A stretch of DNA of 64,000 nucleotides from Janthinobacterium silvisoli (GTDB lineage Bacteria; Pseudomonadota; Gammaproteobacteria; Burkholderiales; Burkholderiaceae_D): positions 1,178,001 through 1,242,000 of the forward strand of contig NZ_JACHCL010000002.1 in NCBI RefSeq assembly GCF_014200725.1, given 5' to 3'. This document shows, piece by piece, positions 3,223 to 12,627 of the stretch (position 1 is its first letter; the number at the start of each line of letters is the position of its first letter). The position numbers were made by a program, and so were the translations under genes. The notes under the pieces are model-generated. The model saw nothing but the letters and a program-made list of their open reading frames with translations. It was not told the DNA's origin and did not search any database.

Positions 3223-5415
3223 ATGGTTCGTTGCCGAACGTTGCGTGATTTGACACAGGCGGTACACTACTGGTTTTACCGACAGCGGCTCGCCCGTTTT
3301 TCCTGCATGCTAGCTATCCTCGAACGCATTGATCCCTACACCAGCAACATCGACTTGCTGGTGGAATTATTTAACTCTCTGCGTCCCAAGCGCCCGCACG
3401 ACAGCGCCACCGCCATCGCCAATGTGCGCACCCTGCGCCAACTACTGAAAGGCAACCCCGACCAAGCCCGCGCCCTGCATGAATACGTGCTGCGCGTGCT
3501 GGCCGCGCGCCGCCACGCCAGCCTCTACACCGATATCGGCGTGCTCTCGAACAGCGGCTTTTTTACCGAATTGAAACGCCGCATCGCCTACCGTATGCTG
3601 CCGCCCGCGCTGGGCGATGAATACCTGAACGACGCGCTCGACCAGGTGCTGTACCTGAAGACCGATTACATCTGGATCAGCAATGTACCGGCCGCAGACT
3701 GGCTGGAACTGTTCGACGTGCTGACGGCGGACGAGATCGAACTGGCCGTGGGCGATGGCAATATCATGCTGCCTGGCATGCTCGATGCCATCCGCACCCT
3801 GTCTTACCGCGTCTGCGCGATGGGGCTGGAACCGGAATTGACGCGTTTCCATAATGAAATTGAAGTCTTCCAGTCGCCGTTCATGGTGCAAAATACGGAA
3901 GTGAACGCCTACCTTGATGCGTACACCAAGCTGCTGCACGGCGACCCGGAGCCGATCGAAGATGCGCGCCACTTGCTGGTGATGCTGGACCAGTGCGACG
4001 CCGTGATCGCCAAGATCCGCAAGAAAGCCTTGTACCAGGGTACCAGCATCCCCCTCACCTATCTGCTGGTGGCCCTGGCGCAAAGCATAGACCGCCTGCG
4101 CAAGCTGCTGTTCCTGGTCGATACCAGCGGCGAGCTGCCCGGCTCGCCCAATGTCGATATCGCCGCCGTCACCATTGACGCTACGCAAGACTTGCTCGAT
4201 GCGCGCCCCATCAGCCGCCGCCGCGCGGGAGCCGTCTCGCTGGCGCTGGAACTGATCAGCGCGCACAACAACAAGTACAAAGTCAGCGACCTGTTTTCCG
4301 ACAATATCAACTTGCTGGCCCGTAACGTGACGGAAAACGCCAGCCGCACGGGTGAACACTACATCGCGGAAAACCGCCGCGAGATGGGCGGCATGTTCCT
4401 CTCGTCGGCCGGCGCCGGCGTGATCATCGGCTTCATGGCCCTGTTCAAGATATTGATGTCGTATTTGCGCTCGGCGCCACTGGTCGAAGCGTTCATGTTC
4501 AGCATGAATTATTCGGTCGGCTTCATGTTCATCCACTTGCTGCACTTTACGGTGGCCACCAAGCAGCCGGCCATGACGGCCTCGCGCATCGCCGCCGGCC
4601 TGCACAGCAAGGATGGCAGGAATATCGACCTCGACAGCATGGCTGAGCTGATCACCAAGGTGTTCCGCACGCAAAACATGGCCGTGCTGGGCAACCTGGC
4701 CACGGCGATTCCCACGGCGTGGCTGATCGCGCTCGGTTACAAGGCGATCACCGGCCATCACCTGGTGTCGCCCGACAAGGCCATGCACTTGCTGCACGAT
4801 ATAGACCCTATCGGCACGCCAGCCGTGCTGTACGCCATGATCGCCGGCGTGTGCCTGTTCGTGGCCGGCTTGATTTCAGGCTATTATGACAACCAGGCCC
4901 TGTACACGCGCTGGGCCCAGCGCATCGCGCAATTGCGTGGCCTGGGCCGCGTGATCGGCCAGGAAAGGCTGCAGCGCCTGGGCCTGTATCTGGAAAACAA
5001 CCTCGGTGGCTTGATGGGTAACTTCTACTTCGGTATCTTGCTGGGCACCATAGGCACGCTGGGTTTCCTGGTCGGCCTGCCCATCGATATCCGCCACATC
5101 ACCTTTTCGGCAGCCAACTTCGCCACCGCCCTGGTAGGACTCGACCACCACATGAGCTGGCAACTGGCAGTCAAGTCGCTGTCGGGCATCTTTGCCATCG
5201 GCACGGCCAACCTGTTGGTCAGCTTCGGCCTGGCACTGTGGGTGGCACTGCGTTCGCGCCAGGTGCGCTTCAAGCATGGCGTGCAATTGCTGAAGATCCT
5301 CGGCAAACGCTTCCTGAGGTCGCCCATCACCTTCTTCTTCGGCAGTAAAAATCCGCCGCCACCGGCGCTGGCTGATGAATCGGCCGGTGCATCACCACCC
5401 AGAGGCCACAAATGA
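3223..5415 (+). CDS. SpecificRecomb-family multi-spanning membrane protein (annotated elsewhere as site-specific recombinase Gcr)
   Basis: A 730-residue protein matching the SpecificRecomb (Gcr) family in length and in blocks such as ERIDPYTSNIDLLVELFNSLRPKR. I see no serine- or tyrosine-recombinase catalytic motif. The C-terminal half instead carries at least five hydrophobic helices (starting at AGAGVIIGFMALFKI, EAFMFSMNYSVGFMF, YAMIAGVCLFVAGLI, NFYFGILLGTIGTLG and GIFAIGTANLLVSFG), so it is more plausibly an inner-membrane protein. The start is uncertain: 3223 is used, and an ATG at 3307 directly precedes the conserved region. Its stop overlaps the next gene by 4 bases (ATGA), indicating translational coupling. 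Confidence 0.8.
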   Translation: MVRCRTLRDLTQAVHYWFYRQRLARFSCMLAILERIDPYTSNIDLLVELFNSLRPKRPHDSATAIANVRTLRQLLKGNPDQARALHEYVLRVLAARRHASLYTDIGVLSNSGFFTELKRRIAYRMLPPALGDEYLNDALDQVLYLKTDYIWISNVPAADWLELFDVLTADEIELAVGDGNIMLPGMLDAIRTLSYRVCAMGLEPELTRFHNEIEVFQSPFMVQNTEVNAYLDAYTKLLHGDPEPIEDARHLLVMLDQCDAVIAKIRKKALYQGTSIPLTYLLVALAQSIDRLRKLLFLVDTSGELPGSPNVDIAAVTIDATQDLLDARPISRRRAGAVSLALELISAHNNKYKVSDLFSDNINLLARNVTENASRTGEHYIAENRREMGGMFLSSAGAGVIIGFMALFKILMSYLRSAPLVEAFMFSMNYSVGFMFIHLLHFTVATKQPAMTASRIAAGLHSKDGRNIDLDSMAELITKVFRTQNMAVLGNLATAIPTAWLIALGYKAITGHHLVSPDKAMHLLHDIDPIGTPAVLYAMIAGVCLFVAGLISGYYDNQALYTRWAQRIAQLRGLGRVIGQERLQRLGLYLENNLGGLMGNFYFGILLGTIGTLGFLVGLPIDIRHITFSAANFATALVGLDHHMSWQLAVKSLSGIFAIGTANLLVSFGLALWVALRSRQVRFKHGVQLLKILGKRFLRSPITFFFGSKNPPPPALADESAGASPPRGHK

Positions 5416-6803
5416 CAAAGAGGCGCATGCGATCTTGTTTTCCCTTGATCCTGCTGTGCTGGATCATGAGCGCATGCGCCTCCTTGCCCAATGTTAAAAA
5501 CCTCAATACCGAGCTGGAGCCGGCCGCCACGCCCAAGGTGATCACGGGCAAGGGCGCCGTGCTCAGCGTCAACAGCCGGGCCGCCCTGCTCAACAAGCGC
5601 TGGGCCAAGTCTGGCATGGATTTGAAAACCCAGGCCGCGCTGGAAGAAGCGGCCACCGGTGTGCCCTTGATCAAGGGCAACAAAGTCACCCTGCTGTTTG
5701 ACGGCCCGCAAACCATGGCGGAAATGTTCAAGGCTATCAGCGAAGCCAGGAGCAGCATCAACCTGGAAACCTATATCTTCGACCAGGACCCGCTGGGCCT
5801 GAAGTTTGCCGACATGCTGATCGAAAAGCAGCAGGCGGGCGTGACCGTCAACGTGATCTACGATAGCGTGGGCACCATTGGCGTGCCGCAAGCGTTCTTT
5901 GACCGCATGCGCGCGGCCGGCGTGCACCTGGTGGCCTTCAACCCCGTCAACCCGGCCAAGCTGCGCGGCGACGAATGGAAAATCAATAACCGCGACCACC
6001 GCAAGGTGCTGATCGTCGACGGCAAGATGGCCTTTACGGGCGGCATCAATATCAGCGACACCTACGCCAAGAGCTCGCTGTTCCGCTCCAAATCCAAGGA
6101 CAAGGACAAGAGCGACGTGGGCTGGCGCGATACCCATGTCAAAGTCGAAGGCCCGGCCGTGGCCGCCTTCCAGTGGCTGTTCATCCGCACCTGGGCCCAG
6201 CAGGATGCGGCCGACCTGCCAGACGGCAATTATTTCCCCGTGCTCTCGGAAGTGGGCGACAAGCTGGTGCGCGTGGTGGCCAGCGAACCGGGCGGCGGCT
6301 TTGAAATCTACAAGGCCTACATCCTGGCGATCCAGGAAGCGAAAAAATCGATCCACATCACCTCCGCCTATTTCGTGCCCGATGAGCAAACGGTCGCAGC
6401 CCTGATCGCCGCCGCCCAGCGGGGCGTGGATGTGAAAGTGGTGTTGCCCGGCGTATCAGACAGCGGCCTGGTGTTTCACGCCGGCCATGCCCTGTACGAC
6501 CAGCTGCTGGCCGGCGGCATCCGCATCTTTCACTTGAAACTGGCCGTGCTGCACGCCAAGACGGCCGTCATCGACGGCGCCTGGTCGACGGTCGGCTCGA
6601 CCAATATCGACATGCGCAGCTTCCTGCACAACAGCGAGCTGAACGTTGTGGTACTCGGTGACAGTTTCGGGCGCGAAATGGAAAACGCCTTTCAGGAAGA
6701 CTTGCGCGACTCGGAAGAGATTACCAAGGCGAAATGGGAAGCACGGCCGCTGTCGGACCGCATCAAGGAATGGTCGGCCCGTTTCATGAATTACTGGCTA
6801 TAG
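5412..6803 (+). CDS. Phospholipase D / cardiolipin synthase-like lipoprotein
   Basis: A 463-residue PLD-superfamily enzyme with both HxKxxxxD motifs intact: HRKVLIVDG near residue 200 and HAKTAVIDG near residue 380, each followed by the usual glycine/asparagine block (GGINISD, GSTNIDMRS). The N-terminus is a lipoprotein signal with a probable lipobox at MSACAS, so the enzyme probably sits at the membrane facing the periplasm. It resembles ClsC-type cardiolipin synthases, which condense phospholipids, but hydrolytic PLD activity is also possible. It overlaps the upstream membrane-protein gene by 4 bases and converges on the exporter gene with a 14-base gap. Confidence 0.9.
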   Translation: MTKRRMRSCFPLILLCWIMSACASLPNVKNLNTELEPAATPKVITGKGAVLSVNSRAALLNKRWAKSGMDLKTQAALEEAATGVPLIKGNKVTLLFDGPQTMAEMFKAISEARSSINLETYIFDQDPLGLKFADMLIEKQQAGVTVNVIYDSVGTIGVPQAFFDRMRAAGVHLVAFNPVNPAKLRGDEWKINNRDHRKVLIVDGKMAFTGGINISDTYAKSSLFRSKSKDKDKSDVGWRDTHVKVEGPAVAAFQWLFIRTWAQQDAADLPDGNYFPVLSEVGDKLVRVVASEPGGGFEIYKAYILAIQEAKKSIHITSAYFVPDEQTVAALIAAAQRGVDVKVVLPGVSDSGLVFHAGHALYDQLLAGGIRIFHLKLAVLHAKTAVIDGAWSTVGSTNIDMRSFLHNSELNVVVLGDSFGREMENAFQEDLRDSEEITKAKWEARPLSDRIKEWSARFMNYWL

Positions 6804-6817
6804 GCTGGCGCGATCAG

Positions 6818-8953
6818 CTACGCTGCCTCCTTCGTTTCCTGTAATACATCCTGCACCACCTTGCCCTGTTGCAGCACCACTACACGCTGCGCCATGCCAA
6901 TGGTTTCCGGGCGGTGCGCCACGATCACACGCGTCAATGGGATTTGTTGAATCGCCGCATTGACGGCTTTTTCATTCCACACATCCAGGTGGCTGGTCGC
7001 CTCGTCGAGCACCAGCAATTTCGGGTTTTTATACAGCGCGCGCGCCAGCAAGATACGCTGCTTCTGGCCACCGGACAGGCCGCTGCCGATATCGCCCACC
7101 AGGGTATTGAAGCCCATCGGCATGGCGGCGATTTCGGCCTGCACGGCGGCCAGCTGGGCGCAAGCCTGGACTTGCTGCGGGTTCGGTGAGGGGGCAAAGA
7201 AACTGATATTGTCAGCAATCGAACCGGCGAACAGGGTGTCTTCCTGCATCACCGTGCCCAGCAACTGGCGGTAGTTCGCCATGCCCAGGCTGCCTAACGG
7301 GACGCCGCCGATCAGGATCTCGCCTTCGGTAGGCTCCAGCAAACCCAGCAGCAATTTCATCAAGGTCGTTTTGCCACAGCCAGACGGGCCGGTGACGGCG
7401 ATGCACTGGCCGGCAGGAATGCTCAGGTTCAGTCCGCTCAAGATCATCGGTTCGCTATCGGCGTAGCGGAAGCCCAGGTTGCGGATCTCGATCGATGGCG
7501 TAATGTGCTCGATGTCGATTTCCACATCGTTGCCGTCCACCTCCGCCTGCGTCAGCACGATATCGGCTACCCGTTCGCCATGCAGGCGCAGCATGCGCAA
7601 CTCAAACAATTTGTCGACCAGGCTGGCCATGCGCTGGCTGAACTGGTCTTTATAGCTGATGAAAGCAAACAGCATGCCGACTGAAAAACGGTTATCCAGC
7701 ACGGCCAGGGCCGCCATCCAGATCACGATCACCCGTTCGGCACTGAACAAGAGCGTATTGGCGGTCTGGTAAGACACGGATAGTTTGGCGATGCGCAGGT
7801 CGGCATTGAACTGGTCGGCCAGCGCATTCATCCAGCTGGCGCGGCGTTCTTCGCTGCGGCCGAACAGACGGATGCTCTGGATGCCACGCACCGATTCCAG
7901 GAAATGCGTCTGTTGTTTGGCAGCATGGATAATTTGCTCGGCATTGGCTTCGCGCAAGGCCTTGAAGATGGCCCAGCGCAACAAGATGTACAGAAGAACC
8001 GCGATGCACGCCACGCCGGCCAGCAGCGGGCTGTAGAACAGCATCATGCCCAGGGTAGCCAGCACCAGCACGCCATCGATCGCACCTTCGACAAATTGCG
8101 TGGTCAGGCTGCGCTGCATGGTTTGGATGGAACTGAAGCGCGAGACGATATCGCCCGTGTGGCGCTTCTCGAAGTATGGCAGCGGCAGTTTCAGCAAGTG
8201 GGCAAAGGCATTGCCCAACCATTGCAAGTTCAGATTGGTGGCCAGCACGGTGGTAATCCAGGAACGTACGGCGCCGATCGCCGTTTGTACCAGTACCAGC
8301 AGCAAAAAGCCGCAGCCGAGTACAGTGATCAAATCGCGGTCGGCCGCCAGCAACGCCTCATCGACCAGCCACTGCATATAAAACGGCGCCACCAGCGCGC
8401 ACACCTGCAAGGCCAGACCCAGCACCAGCAATTGCAGCAAACCTCGCCTGAAGCCGACCACGCGGCCCATCAGCGACAGTAGCGAAAAATGCTGTTTTTC
8501 TTCCGCCTTTTTAAAATCGGCGGTGGGCGTCAGTTCCAGCGCCACGCCCGTAAAATGCTTGGCGACCTCGCTCAAGGGCAAGCGCCGTTCACCGACACCG
8601 GGATCGTGGATCACTGCATGGCTGCCGGAAACGGATTTCAGCACCACGAAGTGATTCAAGTTCCAATGCAAGATCGCCGGTAGTTTCAGCTCGGGCAGAT
8701 GCTGCATGTCCAGCTTCAAAGGCCGTGTGTGCAGTGCCAGGCCTTGCGCCATGGCCATCAGCCCCTTCAGGGTCACGCCTTTCAGTGACACGGAGAAACG
8801 CCGGCGCATGCTGGAAATATCGATCTGGTGGCCCCAGTAACTGGCTACCATCGACAGGCAAGCCAGGCCGCACTCGGCAGCCTCCGTTTGCAGCAGGACC
8901 GGCAGACGCTTGCTGCGCCAGAACGACAGGTGGGCGAGATCAGGAAAATGCAT
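6818..8953 (-). CDS. C39-peptidase bacteriocin ABC exporter (CvaB/SunT type)
   Basis: A 711-residue peptidase-containing ABC transporter that removes double-glycine-type leaders and exports the peptide. The N-terminal C39 domain (about 1-135) has the whole triad: Cys28 in QTEAAECGLACL, His101 in NHFVVL and Asp117 in HDPGVG. Six membrane helices follow (about 160-440), then an ATPase with Walker A GPSGCGKTTL, signature LSGGQ, Walker B LLVLDEATSHLD and switch histidine AHRPE. It lies 39 bases downstream of the HlyD-type adaptor, forming an export pair. The cargo is probably the two small peptides encoded at 10919-11275. Its base composition is host-like, unlike the AT-rich cargo genes. Confidence 0.95.
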   Translation of the reverse strand: MHFPDLAHLSFWRSKRLPVLLQTEAAECGLACLSMVASYWGHQIDISSMRRRFSVSLKGVTLKGLMAMAQGLALHTRPLKLDMQHLPELKLPAILHWNLNHFVVLKSVSGSHAVIHDPGVGERRLPLSEVAKHFTGVALELTPTADFKKAEEKQHFSLLSLMGRVVGFRRGLLQLLVLGLALQVCALVAPFYMQWLVDEALLAADRDLITVLGCGFLLLVLVQTAIGAVRSWITTVLATNLNLQWLGNAFAHLLKLPLPYFEKRHTGDIVSRFSSIQTMQRSLTTQFVEGAIDGVLVLATLGMMLFYSPLLAGVACIAVLLYILLRWAIFKALREANAEQIIHAAKQQTHFLESVRGIQSIRLFGRSEERRASWMNALADQFNADLRIAKLSVSYQTANTLLFSAERVIVIWMAALAVLDNRFSVGMLFAFISYKDQFSQRMASLVDKLFELRMLRLHGERVADIVLTQAEVDGNDVEIDIEHITPSIEIRNLGFRYADSEPMILSGLNLSIPAGQCIAVTGPSGCGKTTLMKLLLGLLEPTEGEILIGGVPLGSLGMANYRQLLGTVMQEDTLFAGSIADNISFFAPSPNPQQVQACAQLAAVQAEIAAMPMGFNTLVGDIGSGLSGGQKQRILLARALYKNPKLLVLDEATSHLDVWNEKAVNAAIQQIPLTRVIVAHRPETIGMAQRVVVLQQGKVVQDVLQETKEAA

Positions 8954-8992
8954 GGAATGCAGACGTCAGTGAGGTAAAAGTTAAGGAGACGC

Positions 8993-10300
8993 TTATAAAC
9001 GCCCGGAAATACTGAACAGCGGTTCCAGCACCCATTCATACAGGCGGCGCTGTTCCAGCAGCACGCTGGCGTCGACTTGCATGCCCGATTTGAGGGGCAA
9101 GGTTTCGCCATACGCCTGCACGCTCTGGCGCTGCAATTTCAAACGGATGCGATACAAAGGTTCGCCATTGGTGCCGCTGACGGCGCCGGGCACGGCCAGC
9201 TCTTCCGGCCGCAAGGACGTGCTGGCCACTTCGCGCACCTGGGCCGGATACTGGCCGAATTTCTGGTAAGGATAAGCCTGGTAGCGCAGCAGCACCTGCA
9301 TGCCCGGCTTGATGAAGCCGACCGAGCGCGACGGCGCATAGATTTCTGCTTCCAGCTCGGCGCCGGCCGGCAGCACAGACGCCAGGATGCTGTTGGTCCC
9401 AACTGTCTGGCCCAGCTCGGTGGTAATCGCCGTCACCATGCCATCCTGCAAGGCGCGCACCTGGATTTCGCGGCGCGCCTCGTTTTCCGTCAAATCCTGT
9501 TCGACGGCGGATACATTACGCTGCAAACCTTCCGTATCGCGCTGCGCCTGCACCTGCAAATCGCGCACGTCCGCTTCGGCGCTGGCCAGGTCGCGGCCGC
9601 TGGCCGATTGAATGCGCTGCAACTCGGCCAGCCGCTGGTGCTGGTCCAGCAATTCTGCCTGCTTGTCTTGCAGCTGCGCCGCAGAAATGTAATTGGTGGC
9701 GTTCAACTCGCTATAACGTTTGTAGGATTGCTCGGCCAGTGCGATACGCCGCTGTTGCAGCACAATTTGCCCATCCATGCGGTTTATCTCCGCCGCCAGG
9801 TCGCTGGCCCGCCGTTGCGCCGCCGCAATGCGCTGGCGCGCCTGCAAGCCCGACTGCTTCAATTCCTGGTCGTAACTATCGCGCCGACTCTTCAGCAAGT
9901 TCGACACCACTTGCTGCGGCGCCCCGGCATTGCTACTGCTGCGTTCGCCCGACAGCACGAACAGCACCTCGCCCGCCTTCACCGTCTGCCCCTCCTTCAC
10001 GCGCACCCCCGTGATCACGCCAGCCTGGCCCGGCATCACGCGGATCACACCACTGGTCGGCACCAGCACACCTTGCGACTGCGCCTTGCGGGTGGTGCTG
10101 AAGAAAATAAAGAAAGCGATGATGGCGAGCGCTATCGCCAGGAACAGCAAAGTCAGAAACAGATGGCTGACCGGCCGCGCCAGGATCACCGTGCCATATT
10201 GCTTGCTGCTCAGGTGCTCGATGGCTTGCTGGCGGAAGAGCGGCCGTACCGGAAGCGCTGGGCTTGCTGTTGATGTGGAAATTCCAGATTGATCACGCAA
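8993..10300 (-). CDS. HlyD-family membrane fusion protein (bacteriocin export adaptor)
   Basis: A 435-residue periplasmic adaptor with a cytoplasmic N-terminus (about 1-45), one membrane helix (FLTLLFLAIALAIIAFFIFF, about 48-68), a lipoyl/barrel half (GVIRVMPGQAGVITGVRVKEGQTVKAGEVLF), a long coiled coil (about 130-290) and a beta-barrel C-terminal domain. It links the C39 ABC exporter to an outer-membrane channel of the TolC type, which is not in this window. The start is taken as TTG at 10300. It is the first start after an in-frame TAA and has GAAAG 7 bases upstream, and no ATG or GTG lies in frame before the conserved part. Confidence 0.92.
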   Translation of the reverse strand: MRDQSGISTSTASPALPVRPLFRQQAIEHLSSKQYGTVILARPVSHLFLTLLFLAIALAIIAFFIFFSTTRKAQSQGVLVPTSGVIRVMPGQAGVITGVRVKEGQTVKAGEVLFVLSGERSSSNAGAPQQVVSNLLKSRRDSYDQELKQSGLQARQRIAAAQRRASDLAAEINRMDGQIVLQQRRIALAEQSYKRYSELNATNYISAAQLQDKQAELLDQHQRLAELQRIQSASGRDLASAEADVRDLQVQAQRDTEGLQRNVSAVEQDLTENEARREIQVRALQDGMVTAITTELGQTVGTNSILASVLPAGAELEAEIYAPSRSVGFIKPGMQVLLRYQAYPYQKFGQYPAQVREVASTSLRPEELAVPGAVSGTNGEPLYRIRLKLQRQSVQAYGETLPLKSGMQVDASVLLEQRRLYEWVLEPLFSISGRL

Positions 10301-10501
10301 ACTGAATTACTTTCAGAAATATGTTGCCCCTAACTGGTGAGCAAAAATGCAACCATAGAACGTAGAAAGACAATCGATATTACGATCGATGTCATGACGG
10401 GTATTCTCAAGAACAAGTACAAATCAACCCTGATCTATACTATCTAAAGCATAAAGTAAGCACTTGACAGTGTTCCTAAACCCTTTGAAATACGCACAAA
10501 T
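10301..10501. other. AT-rich gap between immunity candidate and adaptor gene
   Basis: Both strands were read here. The best small frame is a 19-codon minus-strand ORF from the ATG at 10395, with no leader motif and no convincing ribosome binding site, so no gene is called. The adaptor/exporter promoter should lie here, but I could not pick a convincing -35/-10 pair on the minus strand. Confidence 0.4.
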
Positions 10502-10849
10502 TTATTCATTATTAATTTTACGAAAAATTCCATAACAAAATAAAAACATAAGAATCATGCTAATAATATTTTGTGTGGCGACACCGATTTGAAACACGCC
10601 CAAAAATGAAAAAATAATAAAAATCAATGCCCACGCAGCATAGATGGAAGGCAGTTTTCTGCAATTAACTATCTTCCGAACAAAAAAATACAAAAACAGA
10701 AATAAAAATAAAACACCAATAATTTCAAAAAATGACAAAAAATTAATATTTTCAAAACTTCCGAATAGACCATGAAAAACTTCTGCCGATAAGGATAGGA
10801 AAAAAAATACAATAACTAAATTTACCGCAACATGAAAATATTTCATCAT
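10502..10849 (-). CDS. Small four-helix membrane protein, candidate bacteriocin immunity protein
   Basis: A 115-residue, very hydrophobic and AT-rich protein with about four membrane helices (LVIVFFFLSLSAEVF; IIGVLFLFLFLYFFVRKI; AALI-like segment YAAWALIFIIFSFLGVF; IISMILMFLFCYGIF) and a charged tail (RKINNE). I recognise no family. Its position between the peptide precursors and the export genes, its size and its topology are what is seen for immunity proteins of class II microcins/bacteriocins, so that role is inferred. A second ATG directly follows the first (10846). The only strong Shine-Dalgarno (AGGGAGG) is inside the upstream hairpin, 15 bases from the first ATG. Confidence 0.7.
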   Translation of the reverse strand: MMKYFHVAVNLVIVFFFLSLSAEVFHGLFGSFENINFLSFFEIIGVLFLFLFLYFFVRKIVNCRKLPSIYAAWALIFIIFSFLGVFQIGVATQNIISMILMFLFCYGIFRKINNE

Positions 10850-10859
10850 CGTCCAATCT

Positions 10860-10885
10860 AAAAACCTCCCTAAAAACTAGGGAGG
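10860..10885 (-). terminator. Intrinsic terminator/attenuator downstream of bacteriocin precursor genes
   Basis: On the minus strand a perfect 8-bp stem (CCTCCCTA with TAGGGAGG, 5-base loop) is followed at once by TTTTT. It lies 34 bases after the stop codon of the second precursor and 16 bases before the start of the candidate immunity gene. The 3' arm contains AGGGAGG, the best Shine-Dalgarno for the next gene, so the hairpin could both limit read-through and mask that site. Confidence 0.7.
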
Positions 10886-10918
10886 CTTGAAATTTACCAC
10901 TATTTGTAATAATTGATC

Positions 10919-11059
10919 TTACTTGTTCCAACCATTATAGAGGCCACGACCAAAATCTTCCAATTGCTCAGCACCTACGATGATAGCAATCGCCAAGGCT
11001 ACGTAAGGAAGAAAACCACCGGACACTTGTTCAACTTCGTCGAATTTCAGTTCTTGCAT
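10919..11059 (-). CDS. Double-glycine-leader bacteriocin/microcin precursor 1
   Basis: A 46-residue peptide below the usual gene-calling length. The leader MQELKFDEVEQVSGG (15 residues) fits the class II microcin/colicin V leader pattern M-x-E-L-x3-E-V-x2-V-S-G-G, cut after GG by C39 exporters. The predicted mature peptide has 31 residues: a hydrophobic helix (FLPYVALAIAIIVGAEQ) then a charged, glycine- and aromatic-rich tail (FGRGLYNGWNK). GTGAGG lies 7 bases before the ATG. The gene starts 63 bases after the other precursor ends and is followed by a terminator hairpin. The coding sequence is much more AT-rich than neighbouring host genes. Product and leader are read from sequence; bactericidal activity is inferred. 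Confidence 0.85.
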   Translation of the reverse strand: MQELKFDEVEQVSGGFLPYVALAIAIIVGAEQLEDFGRGLYNGWNK

Positions 11060-11122
11060 AATAGCCTCACTTACGATAAATAAATTTCTAAATGAATTAA
11101 TACCTGGCGCTAAGAATTTCTC

Positions 11123-11275
11123 TTATGCGTAAATTTCAGAATTCGGATGCATTCTTGGCATATTATCCCAAACCCAACGAGCAGCACTACCGATTGCCTC
11201 GCCAAGACGTTCTGAAGCTGAGCCTTCTCCTGCACCACTAACACAATCCACTTCTACCAAACTTAATTCAACCAT
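11123..11275 (-). CDS. Double-glycine-type leader bacteriocin/microcin precursor 2
   Basis: A 50-residue peptide. Its leader MVELSLVEVDCVSGA has the same pattern as its neighbour but ends in Gly-Ala, an accepted variant of the double-glycine site, and carries an unusual cysteine at residue 11. The predicted mature peptide has 35 residues, glycine/alanine-rich at first with a GxxxG motif (GEAIG) followed by small residues, then WVWDNMP and a polar tail. AGGAAAAG lies 4 bases before the ATG. Two adjacent precursors with GxxxG-like and amphipathic character suggest a two-peptide bacteriocin, though two independent toxins are also possible. It is the first gene of the AT-rich operon. Confidence 0.82.
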   Translation of the reverse strand: MVELSLVEVDCVSGAGEGSASERLGEAIGSAARWVWDNMPRMHPNSEIYA

Positions 11276-11337
11276 TTCTTTTCCTATACGATCAGAACTT
11301 CAAAAAGTAGATATTAAAAAATGCTTCCCAAGACTAT

Positions 11338-11424
11338 ATTATAGGAACAAGTATATCCATAAGAGGAGAAAATAATTTTCCTTATGGCAACTTCATTAGA
11401 CAACAAAATCAATAATTAAGTCAA
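11338..11424 (-). promoter_or_regulatory. Candidate promoters and palindromic operator of the bacteriocin operon
   Basis: On the minus strand, upstream of precursor 2, two promoter candidates flank a palindrome. P1 is TTGACT (complement of 11419-11424), an 18-base spacer, then TCTAAT (complement of 11395-11400). Its expected start is near 11388. P2 is a perfect TATAAT (complement of 11338-11343) with a poor -35. The inverted repeat CCATAAG/CTTATGG (11357-11363 and 11381-11387) covers the P2 -35 region and begins at the P1 start site. This geometry fits an operator or an early transcript hairpin. Confidence 0.45.
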
Positions 11425-11565
11425 TAGATCCCTGAAATATTTTTTACAAAAAATAAATACATCTCACATCTCTCCGATAAGATCACAGAGACACTTCCAA
11501 TGCTAAGAGACTACTTGAAAAGTCAAAATTCCCGAAATATTCACATCTCAGATTGACACCTTTAC

Positions 11566-11674
11566 ACTCATGAGCACCTCGAAAAACCTACTTTTTCAGC
11601 CTTGCCCGGCCCGTAAGCTGTTGATTCGTAACGAGGCGATTTTAAGAAACGAGGGTTATTCGAGGTGCACTCAT
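11566..11674. mobile_element. Small non-coding inverted-repeat element (MITE or IS end remnant)
   Basis: GCACCTCGAAAAACC (11574-11588) and GGTTATTCGAGGTGC (11654-11668) are inverted repeats matching at 14 of 15 positions and enclosing a 95-bp element with no ORF. ACTCAT occurs at 11566-11571 and again directly after the right end at 11669-11674, as an insertion duplication would. Two extra bases (GA) separate the left copy from the repeat. It resembles a miniature transposable element of an IS family I cannot name with certainty, and it lies at the edge of the AT-rich bacteriocin patch. Confidence 0.55.
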
Positions 11675-11808
11675 GGCCAGTTGTGGAATGTGACGATGGT
11701 AAAGCTTTACTCAATAGGACGATGGCGGTGAAAAGCAGACGATCAATTCATCAACCACGGCTTTGACTCGGAACTGAATATGATCAGACAAAACTAAACA
11801 ATTACGCT
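11675..11808. other. Intergenic remnant between repeat element and metallophosphoesterase gene
   Basis: A 134-bp stretch with no convincing start codon and ribosome site. One plus-strand frame reads through about 24 codons without resemblance to a protein I recognise. It may be leftover DNA from past insertion or deletion. Confidence 0.3.
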
Positions 11809-12627
11809 CTACAACGGTCTTTGACTGGTCCATACTCCCCCCGTGCGCTCGAACGCTTCCGTACTGACCTTTTCAAAATCGCGGCTTTCCTCGTTCCAGC
11901 CATAGCGCTCGACACGGATGTTGCCCGCTTCCACGCGCAGCACATTAAAGGAATTCGATTCTCCCCTGCCCCGCGTTGAGGTGGCCGTGCCCGCTTGCAC
12001 CATCAGGGCTGCGTAGCCGTCTATCTTGTAGCGCTCGGCCGTGTTGCCAGCCACGCTGGCGTGCAGATGACCGGCCAGCAACAAATCGACGCCGCATTCG
12101 GCGAACATGGCCAGCGCCAGCGGCGCGCGGTCGACCAGGTCCTTGGCATTGAAATTGGCGGGCAAGTCAAACGGATGGTGGGTGACGATGATGCGCGTCA
12201 AGCCTTGCGGCAATTGGCCCAGGCGCGTACGTAGCGCATCGATTTGTTCGTGGCTGATGCGGCCATCCTTGAAGGTCAGCGAGCGGGCCGTGTTGATGCC
12301 CAGCACGGCAATTTCTTCATCCACGTATTCGGGCGACAGGTCGGCCGTCACATGCTGGCGGTATTTGCGCAGCGGCGTCAAAAAGCGGCTGAACACGTTG
12401 TACAGCGGCACGTCGTGGTTGCCCGGCACGACGATCTGCGGACCAGGCAAGCTGTCGAGAAAATGCCGCGCGGCGATAAATTCAGCGCTGCGGGCGCGCT
12501 GGCTCAGGTCGCCCGAGACCACCACCACGTCTGGCTCCAGGCGCTCGACCAGCGCGCGCAGCGGTGCCAGCAGCGCAGCATCGACGCGGCCGAAGTGCAG
12601 GTCCGACAGATGCACGATGGTGCGCAT
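11809..12627 (-). CDS. Calcineurin-like metallophosphoesterase (Icc/CpdA-like)
   Basis: A 272-residue two-metal phosphoesterase with all family motifs in order: HLSDLHFGR (D-x-H, residues 6-14), GDLSQRA near 40, PGNHD near 69, THHPF near 150 and GHLH near 185. Members hydrolyse phosphodiesters such as cAMP or phospholipid head groups, and the substrate is not evident here. The ATG lies one base after the stop of the lipid kinase gene, so the two are translationally linked in an operon with the PAP2 phosphatase. That setting favours a role in phospholipid turnover. Confidence 0.88.
   Translation of the reverse strand: MRTIVHLSDLHFGRVDAALLAPLRALVERLEPDVVVVSGDLSQRARSAEFIAARHFLDSLPGPQIVVPGNHDVPLYNVFSRFLTPLRKYRQHVTADLSPEYVDEEIAVLGINTARSLTFKDGRISHEQIDALRTRLGQLPQGLTRIIVTHHPFDLPANFNAKDLVDRAPLALAMFAECGVDLLLAGHLHASVAGNTAERYKIDGYAALMVQAGTATSTRGRGESNSFNVLRVEAGNIRVERYGWNEESRDFEKVSTEAFERTGGVWTSQRPL

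Follow-up and report, generated by a model that had tools for sequence, protein, structure and literature searches.

The 64,000-nucleotide stretch of Janthinobacterium silvisoli DNA analysed here (NZ_JACHCL010000002.1, positions 1,178,001 to 1,242,000; hereafter the window) carries on its minus strand a block of five genes that probably makes an unmodified two-peptide bacteriocin of class IIb type in a Gram-negative host, a reading to which we give a probability of about 60%. Along the minus strand the block consists of two precursor genes, pep2 and pep1, a hairpin with a T run, a gene for a 115-amino-acid (aa) protein with four transmembrane (TM) segments, and genes for an HlyD-type adaptor and a C39-peptidase ATP-binding cassette (ABC) exporter. 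A preliminary description had proposed a precursor pair with GG/GA leaders, its own C39 exporter, an HlyD adaptor, a four-TM immunity candidate and a two-component design, and each of these elements was supported.

The precursor genes pep2 (positions 11123 to 11275, minus strand, 50 codons) and pep1 (10919 to 11059, minus strand, 46 codons) encode the 15-aa leaders MVELSLVEVDCVSGA and MQELKFDEVEQVSGG, respectively, followed by mature peptides of 35 and 31 aa; the coordinates, codon numbers and leaders quoted in the preliminary description matched exactly on rereading. A six-frame scan of the window for the leader pattern gave pep1 and pep2 as the sole matching open reading frames (ORFs). The pattern occurred on average 0.04 times over 200 dinucleotide shuffles and its tight form not at all; thus, the leaders are not due to chance. 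Two different neighbouring peptides with double-glycine (GG)-type leaders are characteristic of class IIb. The calculated average masses of the mature peptides are 3438.9 Da (3.44 kDa) for pep1 and 3846.2 Da (3.85 kDa) for pep2, and each includes a single GxxxG motif, GLYNG in the beta-like pep1 and GEAIG in the alpha-like pep2. The C termini of the two peptides are ...NSEIYA and ...NGWNK, and the Ser/Gly-rich C-terminal region of siderophore-type class IIb microcins is absent from both.

The exporter gene (6818 to 8953, minus strand) encodes a peptidase domain (PF03412, E = 7.5e-36) and Walker A, Walker B and LSGGQ motifs. Cys28, His101 and Asp117, which we take to be the catalytic residues, are in place by position, in agreement with the intact triad described previously. 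The adaptor gene (8993 to 10300, minus strand) matches PF13437 (E = 3.4e-13), and one TIGR01844 (TolC-type) gene above cut-off was found in the same genome, elsewhere than in the block. At the gene level, therefore, the GG/GA leaders, C39 ABC exporter, HlyD-type adaptor and TolC of a class II microcin system are all present. Cleavage after GG or GA is known for C39 exporters, which function together with an adaptor and TolC (PMC10233263). A family search of the three larger genes of the block (exporter, adaptor and four-TM protein) revealed no modifying enzyme among them. The genome has a second C39-type exporter (L066, G000:C3:351234-353327) that is 38% identical to the first, with an HlyD match nearby; the leader pattern used found no convincing GG precursor in that stretch.

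The 115-aa protein (10502 to 10849, minus strand) has four hydrophobic segments and is a candidate immunity protein. AlphaFold2 predicted four helices at a low mean confidence (pLDDT 55.7). Family-model searches assigned the protein to no family at a meaningful E-value, and a search of the 39 other genus genomes found no relatives at E<=0.01. Together with the precursor genes it forms an AT-rich cargo cassette (10502 to 11275, minus strand) with a G+C content of 0.344, as compared with 0.599 in the exporter and adaptor genes. The hairpin between pep1 and the 115-aa gene (10862 to 10888, minus strand; -16.7 kcal/mol, z -3.66) is followed by a T run and may be an intrinsic terminator or attenuator; it is missing from the list of the consensus terminator scan, and the promoter and terminator sites found by consensus were no commoner than in shuffles.

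The pair recurs in Janthinobacterium fluminis hw3, where a pep2-like gene, a pep1-like gene and a gene for a 122-aa four-TM protein follow in the same order. This cassette (L115:8001-8771, equal to L067:7545-8315, minus strand) has a G+C content of 0.36 in a stretch of 0.62. The pep2 homologue starts at L115:8001, and the pep1 homologue (L067:7983-8147, minus strand) came from the leader scan, which covered 34 stretches, 33 of them around exporters and one around an orphan hit. The alignment of the mature parts from the two species lies well above shuffles (pep1, z 7.3; pep2, z 12.3), with the cross-pairs null. Codon mismatches lean to third positions in both genes, numbering 17, 14 and 27 (of 58) at positions 1, 2 and 3 in pep2 and 15, 16 and 25 (of 56) in pep1. 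GxxxG is present in all four mature peptides (chance product 7e-4), a count that covers these four alone, with the control peptides, many of them Gly-rich, outside it. The four-TM proteins have 28% in common on global alignment, and their local score is not above shuffles (z -0.8).

No exporter or adaptor match was found beside the J. fluminis pair in the 16-kb stretch. Export in trans is possible there, since the genome has six exporter matches at E<=1e-60 elsewhere. An order-wide search with J. fluminis pep2, in a sample without J. fluminis and hence without a self-match, gave matches at E<=1 in 209 of 399 genomes that were taken as noise; at the 10 inspected of the 29 loci outside the own genome, the frame of the match contained no small ORF with a leader. 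One relative was found among 137 stretches in a contig scan with the pep2 pair, in which records of the window's own genome were perhaps excluded. A plasmid search with pep2 gave four weak matches, all at E>=3, and searches of PDB with the two mature peptides gave one chance-level match (E = 0.93) and none.

The preliminary description held that the mature peptides resemble no bacteriocin that could be named. This is corrected here, as they resemble enterocin 1071 and lactococcin G in a diagonal alpha/beta pattern. In a shuffle test of mature sequences, pep2 of both species scored z 6.88 (0 of 4000) against alpha peptides (two sequences) and pep1 scored z 3.55 (p = 0.004) against beta, with cross terms of -0.31 for pep2 against beta and -0.40 for pep1 against alpha. 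Among 22 peptides, including a control set of 18 (14 further cargo peptides from the genus and four plantaricin peptides), the two pep1 peptides ranked first and second on beta and the two pep2 peptides first and third on alpha, with a peptide of genome G009 (G009b) between. The p-values do not come from an independent test, because the hypothesis was picked after the family matches were known. The gene order on pEF1071 is also alpha, beta and then an ORF with four TM-like segments, as in the window. That ORF, which is missing from the incomplete gene table of PLSDB, encodes 125 aa from its first ATG and 110 aa from an internal ATG, and its likeness to the 115-aa protein is one of topology only (z 1.15, p = 0.14).

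Of the family models, TIGR03949 (class IIb bacteriocin, lactobin A/cerein 7B; cut-off 21.5 bits) is passed by pep1 of both the window (25.0 bits) and J. fluminis (23.5 bits). Weak matches were found for window pep1 to NF038034 (E = 0.013), for J. fluminis pep2 to NF038035 (E = 0.026) and, over residues 1-29, to PF17508 MccV (E = 0.0024, below cut-off), and for window pep2 to PF08129 (E = 0.24); those to NF038034, NF038035 and PF08129 gave the lead to lactococcin G and enterocin 1071.

Several results weigh against a class IIb-type bacteriocin. The lactococcin G beta and alpha models NF038034 and NF038035 (cut-off 37 bits) are not passed, the best scores being 15.7 bits (window pep1) and 14.6 bits (J. 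fluminis pep2), respectively. NF038035 gave weak matches at E<=1 in seven of 40 genus genomes and NF038034 gave matches at E<=0.1 in 14 of 369 genomes of the class, none above cut-off and none in the own genome; these searches, in which no control genome rose above cut-off either, count against formal family membership. Hence, given that the curated models stay below cut-off, the pair is filed as one that would work in the manner of a two-peptide bacteriocin and that resembles lactococcin G and enterocin 1071, and not as a member of their family. TIGR03949 is also passed by both peptides of G009 and by one of G007; as this cargo is unrelated, the model mainly certifies the leader. G009b (L069:11093-11242, minus strand) likewise scores z 4.2 against the alpha peptides, and its partner peptide has no score against beta. 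Single comparisons range from 0 of 3000 (window pep2 and enterocin 1071A) to p = 0.11 (window pep1 and enterocin 1071B), and that of J. fluminis pep2 with lactococcin G alpha is also weak (p = 0.065). When shuffles preserved the hydrophobic/Gly-Pro/polar pattern, p was 0.002 for pep2 with alpha and 0.10 for pep1 with beta. The four-TM proteins of the window, J. fluminis and enterocin 1071 have no likeness beyond composition. The window peptides are acidic (charges -1.2 and -2.1), as compared with +3.8 for each lactococcin G peptide and +0.8 and +1.8 for the J. fluminis pair. The pair was found in two of the 37 genus genomes searched with pep1. Finally, GG peptides from a comparable island, nap of Neisseria, had no inhibitory effect on any strain tested (PMC11798529).

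The block is an insertion (6804 to 11808, the right edge being approximate) between convergent genes for a PLD-family protein (5412-6803) and a metallophosphoesterase (11809-12627). The metallophosphoesterase is present in 40 of 40 genus genomes searched, and in 26 of 30 loci examined it adjoins the PLD-family gene, at a distance of 55-661 bp by alignment ends; hence, the exporter cannot fit there. The other four loci are that of the window (5005 bp apart), L117 (an apparent contig end), and L123 and L128 (no PLD match within the locus). Similarity to relatives stops just past the PLD stop codon, at 6799-6805 and once at 6815, and positions 11276-11808 have no match in the relatives' gaps outside the phosphoesterase end. 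At the intergenic end of the block (11574-11668), two imperfect 22-nt arms form an inverted repeat around a 51-nt spacer. The repeat resembled a mobile-element remnant; it was found in one of 40 genus genomes, here alone, and no claim of mobility is therefore made from it.

Full-length orthologous exporters (83-94% identity) are present in 15 other genomes of the 40, and in G021 (L083:6001-6606) a 92% match covers residues 1-204 only, with a GG precursor and a small TM ORF open. By flank similarity the 17 exporter loci fall into ten groups, four common to two to four genomes and six single, G008 and G011 being grouped by the upstream flank alone. The check on related genomes suggested in the preliminary description had a divided outcome, as GG precursors lie beside orthologous exporters at 14 of the 17 loci and just one other genome yielded this pair of peptides, with no exporter adjoining them. 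There are two precursors in the window, G009, G007 and G063, three in G003, and one each in G008, G019, G021, G025 (on the opposite strand) and G016 (downstream of the C39 gene); G020, G011, G006 and G002 have arrays, and none were seen at G030, G035 and G001, the last with 1.1 kb upstream covered. Eight of the 17 loci (ordinary cargo, window included) were examined for small TM-protein ORFs, and all eight have them between GG precursors and HlyD, a count made without a chance control; a few of the TM-like ORFs flanking these loci are probably spurious. One small TM ORF of G063 encodes a CPBP/Abi-type intramembrane protease (PF02517, E = 2.8e-19), a type linked to bacteriocin self-immunity (PMC8538875). 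Cargo differs between species within two flank groups (G009 and G003; G007 and G008), and about ten cargo sets, by eye, stand behind one exporter. As the orthologous exporters of the genus carry other GG-peptide cargo, the arrangement looks like a platform for export whose AT-rich cargo can be swapped.

In the arrays (L070, L073, L076 and L078 of G020, G011, G006 and G002, respectively), tiny GG precursors lie on both sides of the orthologous exporters. Most are 27-29 aa long, with a mature part of ~13-14 aa of the form xxPE[SAG]S[VI]G plus a variable tail; there are 29 matches in total at E<=1.2e-5, 7-8 per genome in four of 40 genomes. Upstream of all four arrays are a gene of 744-746 aa, which in L078, the single copy tested, encodes a Ser/Thr kinase with TPR repeats, and a gene of 189-201 aa, the L078 copy of which has no family match. 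The arrays have the look of a family of peptide signals or substrates. Within one of them (L078:5578-5984), fragments match HlyD residues 60-150 and C39 residues 686-711, perhaps a remnant exporter copy. Precursors of another kind, whose leaders are of the form MHPFSL...SGG and which contain repeats similar to TTLAIGEEGG, occur in J. fluminis and G001 (L051:1368-5267, minus strand; L052:5057-5287, minus strand), where the exporters are about 55% identical; TTxxxxEE is what we take to be the graspetide/plesiocin core motif.

It is rather unlikely that the J. silvisoli peptides are exported signals or effectors of autolysis or biofilm formation, like the GG peptides of the nap island. That island is also betaproteobacterial and AT-rich, with a C39 peptidase and the LagC-like NapI, and its mature peptides mediate autolysis yet showed no inhibition of growth (PMC11798529). 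Some GG peptides have communication or biofilm roles (PMC10233263), and the 13-14-aa peptides arrayed at sister loci look unlike pore formers. However, the window has two different GxxxG peptides and one four-TM gene that recur as a three-gene set without an adjoining exporter, a family search of the five genes of the block brought out neither a regulator nor a receptor, and the cargo varies between species despite common flanks, which is more weapon-like than expected of a common signal.

The recurrence of both peptides together, in order and with one four-TM gene in J. fluminis, and the diagonal alpha/beta similarity, make it improbable that they are two independent single-peptide bacteriocins or microcins using one exporter with no two-component pore, even though class II microcins act singly and single GG precursors are present at other loci (G008, G019 and G021). 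Least probable is that the cassette, once acquired, has become degenerate or silent through loss of expression or function, as would fit its patchy occurrence (found in two of 37 genomes), its high A+T content, the lack of a consensus promoter listed upstream of the precursors in their orientation and the truncated exporter of G021, since all five window ORFs are open, the peptidase and ATPase motifs are present and mismatches between the two species are biased to third positions.

For a two-peptide bacteriocin, we infer the following pathway. The two small precursors would be translated from one short AT-rich cassette, and the C39 domain of the adjoining exporter would cut each after GG or GA (residue 15). 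The exporter, the HlyD adaptor and the TolC-type outer membrane channel encoded elsewhere would then release the 35-aa alpha-like and 31-aa beta-like peptides. The two helices would pair, probably via their GxxxG faces, and the paired peptides would make the inner membrane of related bacteria permeable and so act as an antibacterial, with the 115-aa four-TM protein protecting the producer. The block would be an inserted module in which the cargo behind the exporter varies between species.

A broader and distinctly tentative picture is that the genus has a mobile export platform (HlyD and C39 exporter) whose cargo slot can take different contents. The window cargo would be a lactococcin-G/enterocin-1071-like pair working across the Gram-negative envelope, and the arrays of 13-14-aa peptides beside the Ser/Thr-kinase-TPR gene in sister species might be a Gram-negative multi-allele peptide signal. 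A literature search found no unmodified two-peptide bacteriocin from a Gram-negative producer among the titles and abstract openings listed, the most direct queries giving nothing or a paper on lanthipeptides, and most subscription papers lying outside its coverage; Dirix et al. reportedly screened Gram-negative GG peptides in 2004. If the bacteriocin reading is true, bacteriocins that form pores from two peptides occur beyond the Gram-positive bacteria. The exporter, with its interchangeable toxin/immunity cassettes, would then offer a natural test of outer-membrane crossing and target recognition, in which the cargo sets behind it are directly comparable. Janthinobacterium is known for protecting amphibians from fungi (PMC12618000).

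Among known systems, enterocin 1071 and lactococcin G share with the window a gene order in which alpha and beta are followed by a four-TM protein (about 110 aa), the diagonal similarity of the mature peptides and GxxxG. Class IIb pairs permeabilise membranes and have a GxxxG-type motif as a class feature, LagC has four TM domains and the lactococcin G receptor is UppP (PMC8538875). On pEF1071, genes for a C39-type exporter and an accessory protein are adjacent to those of enterocin 1071 but divergent. The window differs from both systems in its Gram-negative host, HlyD adaptor, outer membrane channel and acidic peptides, and in that the family models are not passed. With the lactobin A/cerein 7B family (TIGR03949), likeness is restricted to pep1 in both species, pep2 having no match, and the model is not specific to the pair.

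The Neisseria nap island (NapABC, NapP and NapI) resembles the block in being betaproteobacterial and AT-rich and in encoding GG peptides and a C39 peptidase (PMC11798529). There, napP and napF have a host-like G+C content, a contrast resembling that between the AT-rich cargo and the exporter in the window, and the small immunity-like protein is said to have 30% in common with a LagC domain. The island is set apart by its three cationic peptides (36, 16 and 31 aa), holin-like and FapF-like genes, phase variation and a role in autolysis (PMC11798529). Class II microcins such as microcin V share with the window a GG or GA leader and a C39 ABC exporter with adaptor and TolC, and are given as 5-10 kDa in size (PMC10233263). 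The label 'class II microcin-like' of the preliminary description thus holds for the leaders and exporter and fails on size, as the window has two short peptides (3.4 and 3.8 kDa), with no Ser/Gly-rich siderophore tail, in place of one of 5-10 kDa. Given masses under the class II microcin range, class IIb-type two-peptide bacteriocin is the better label.

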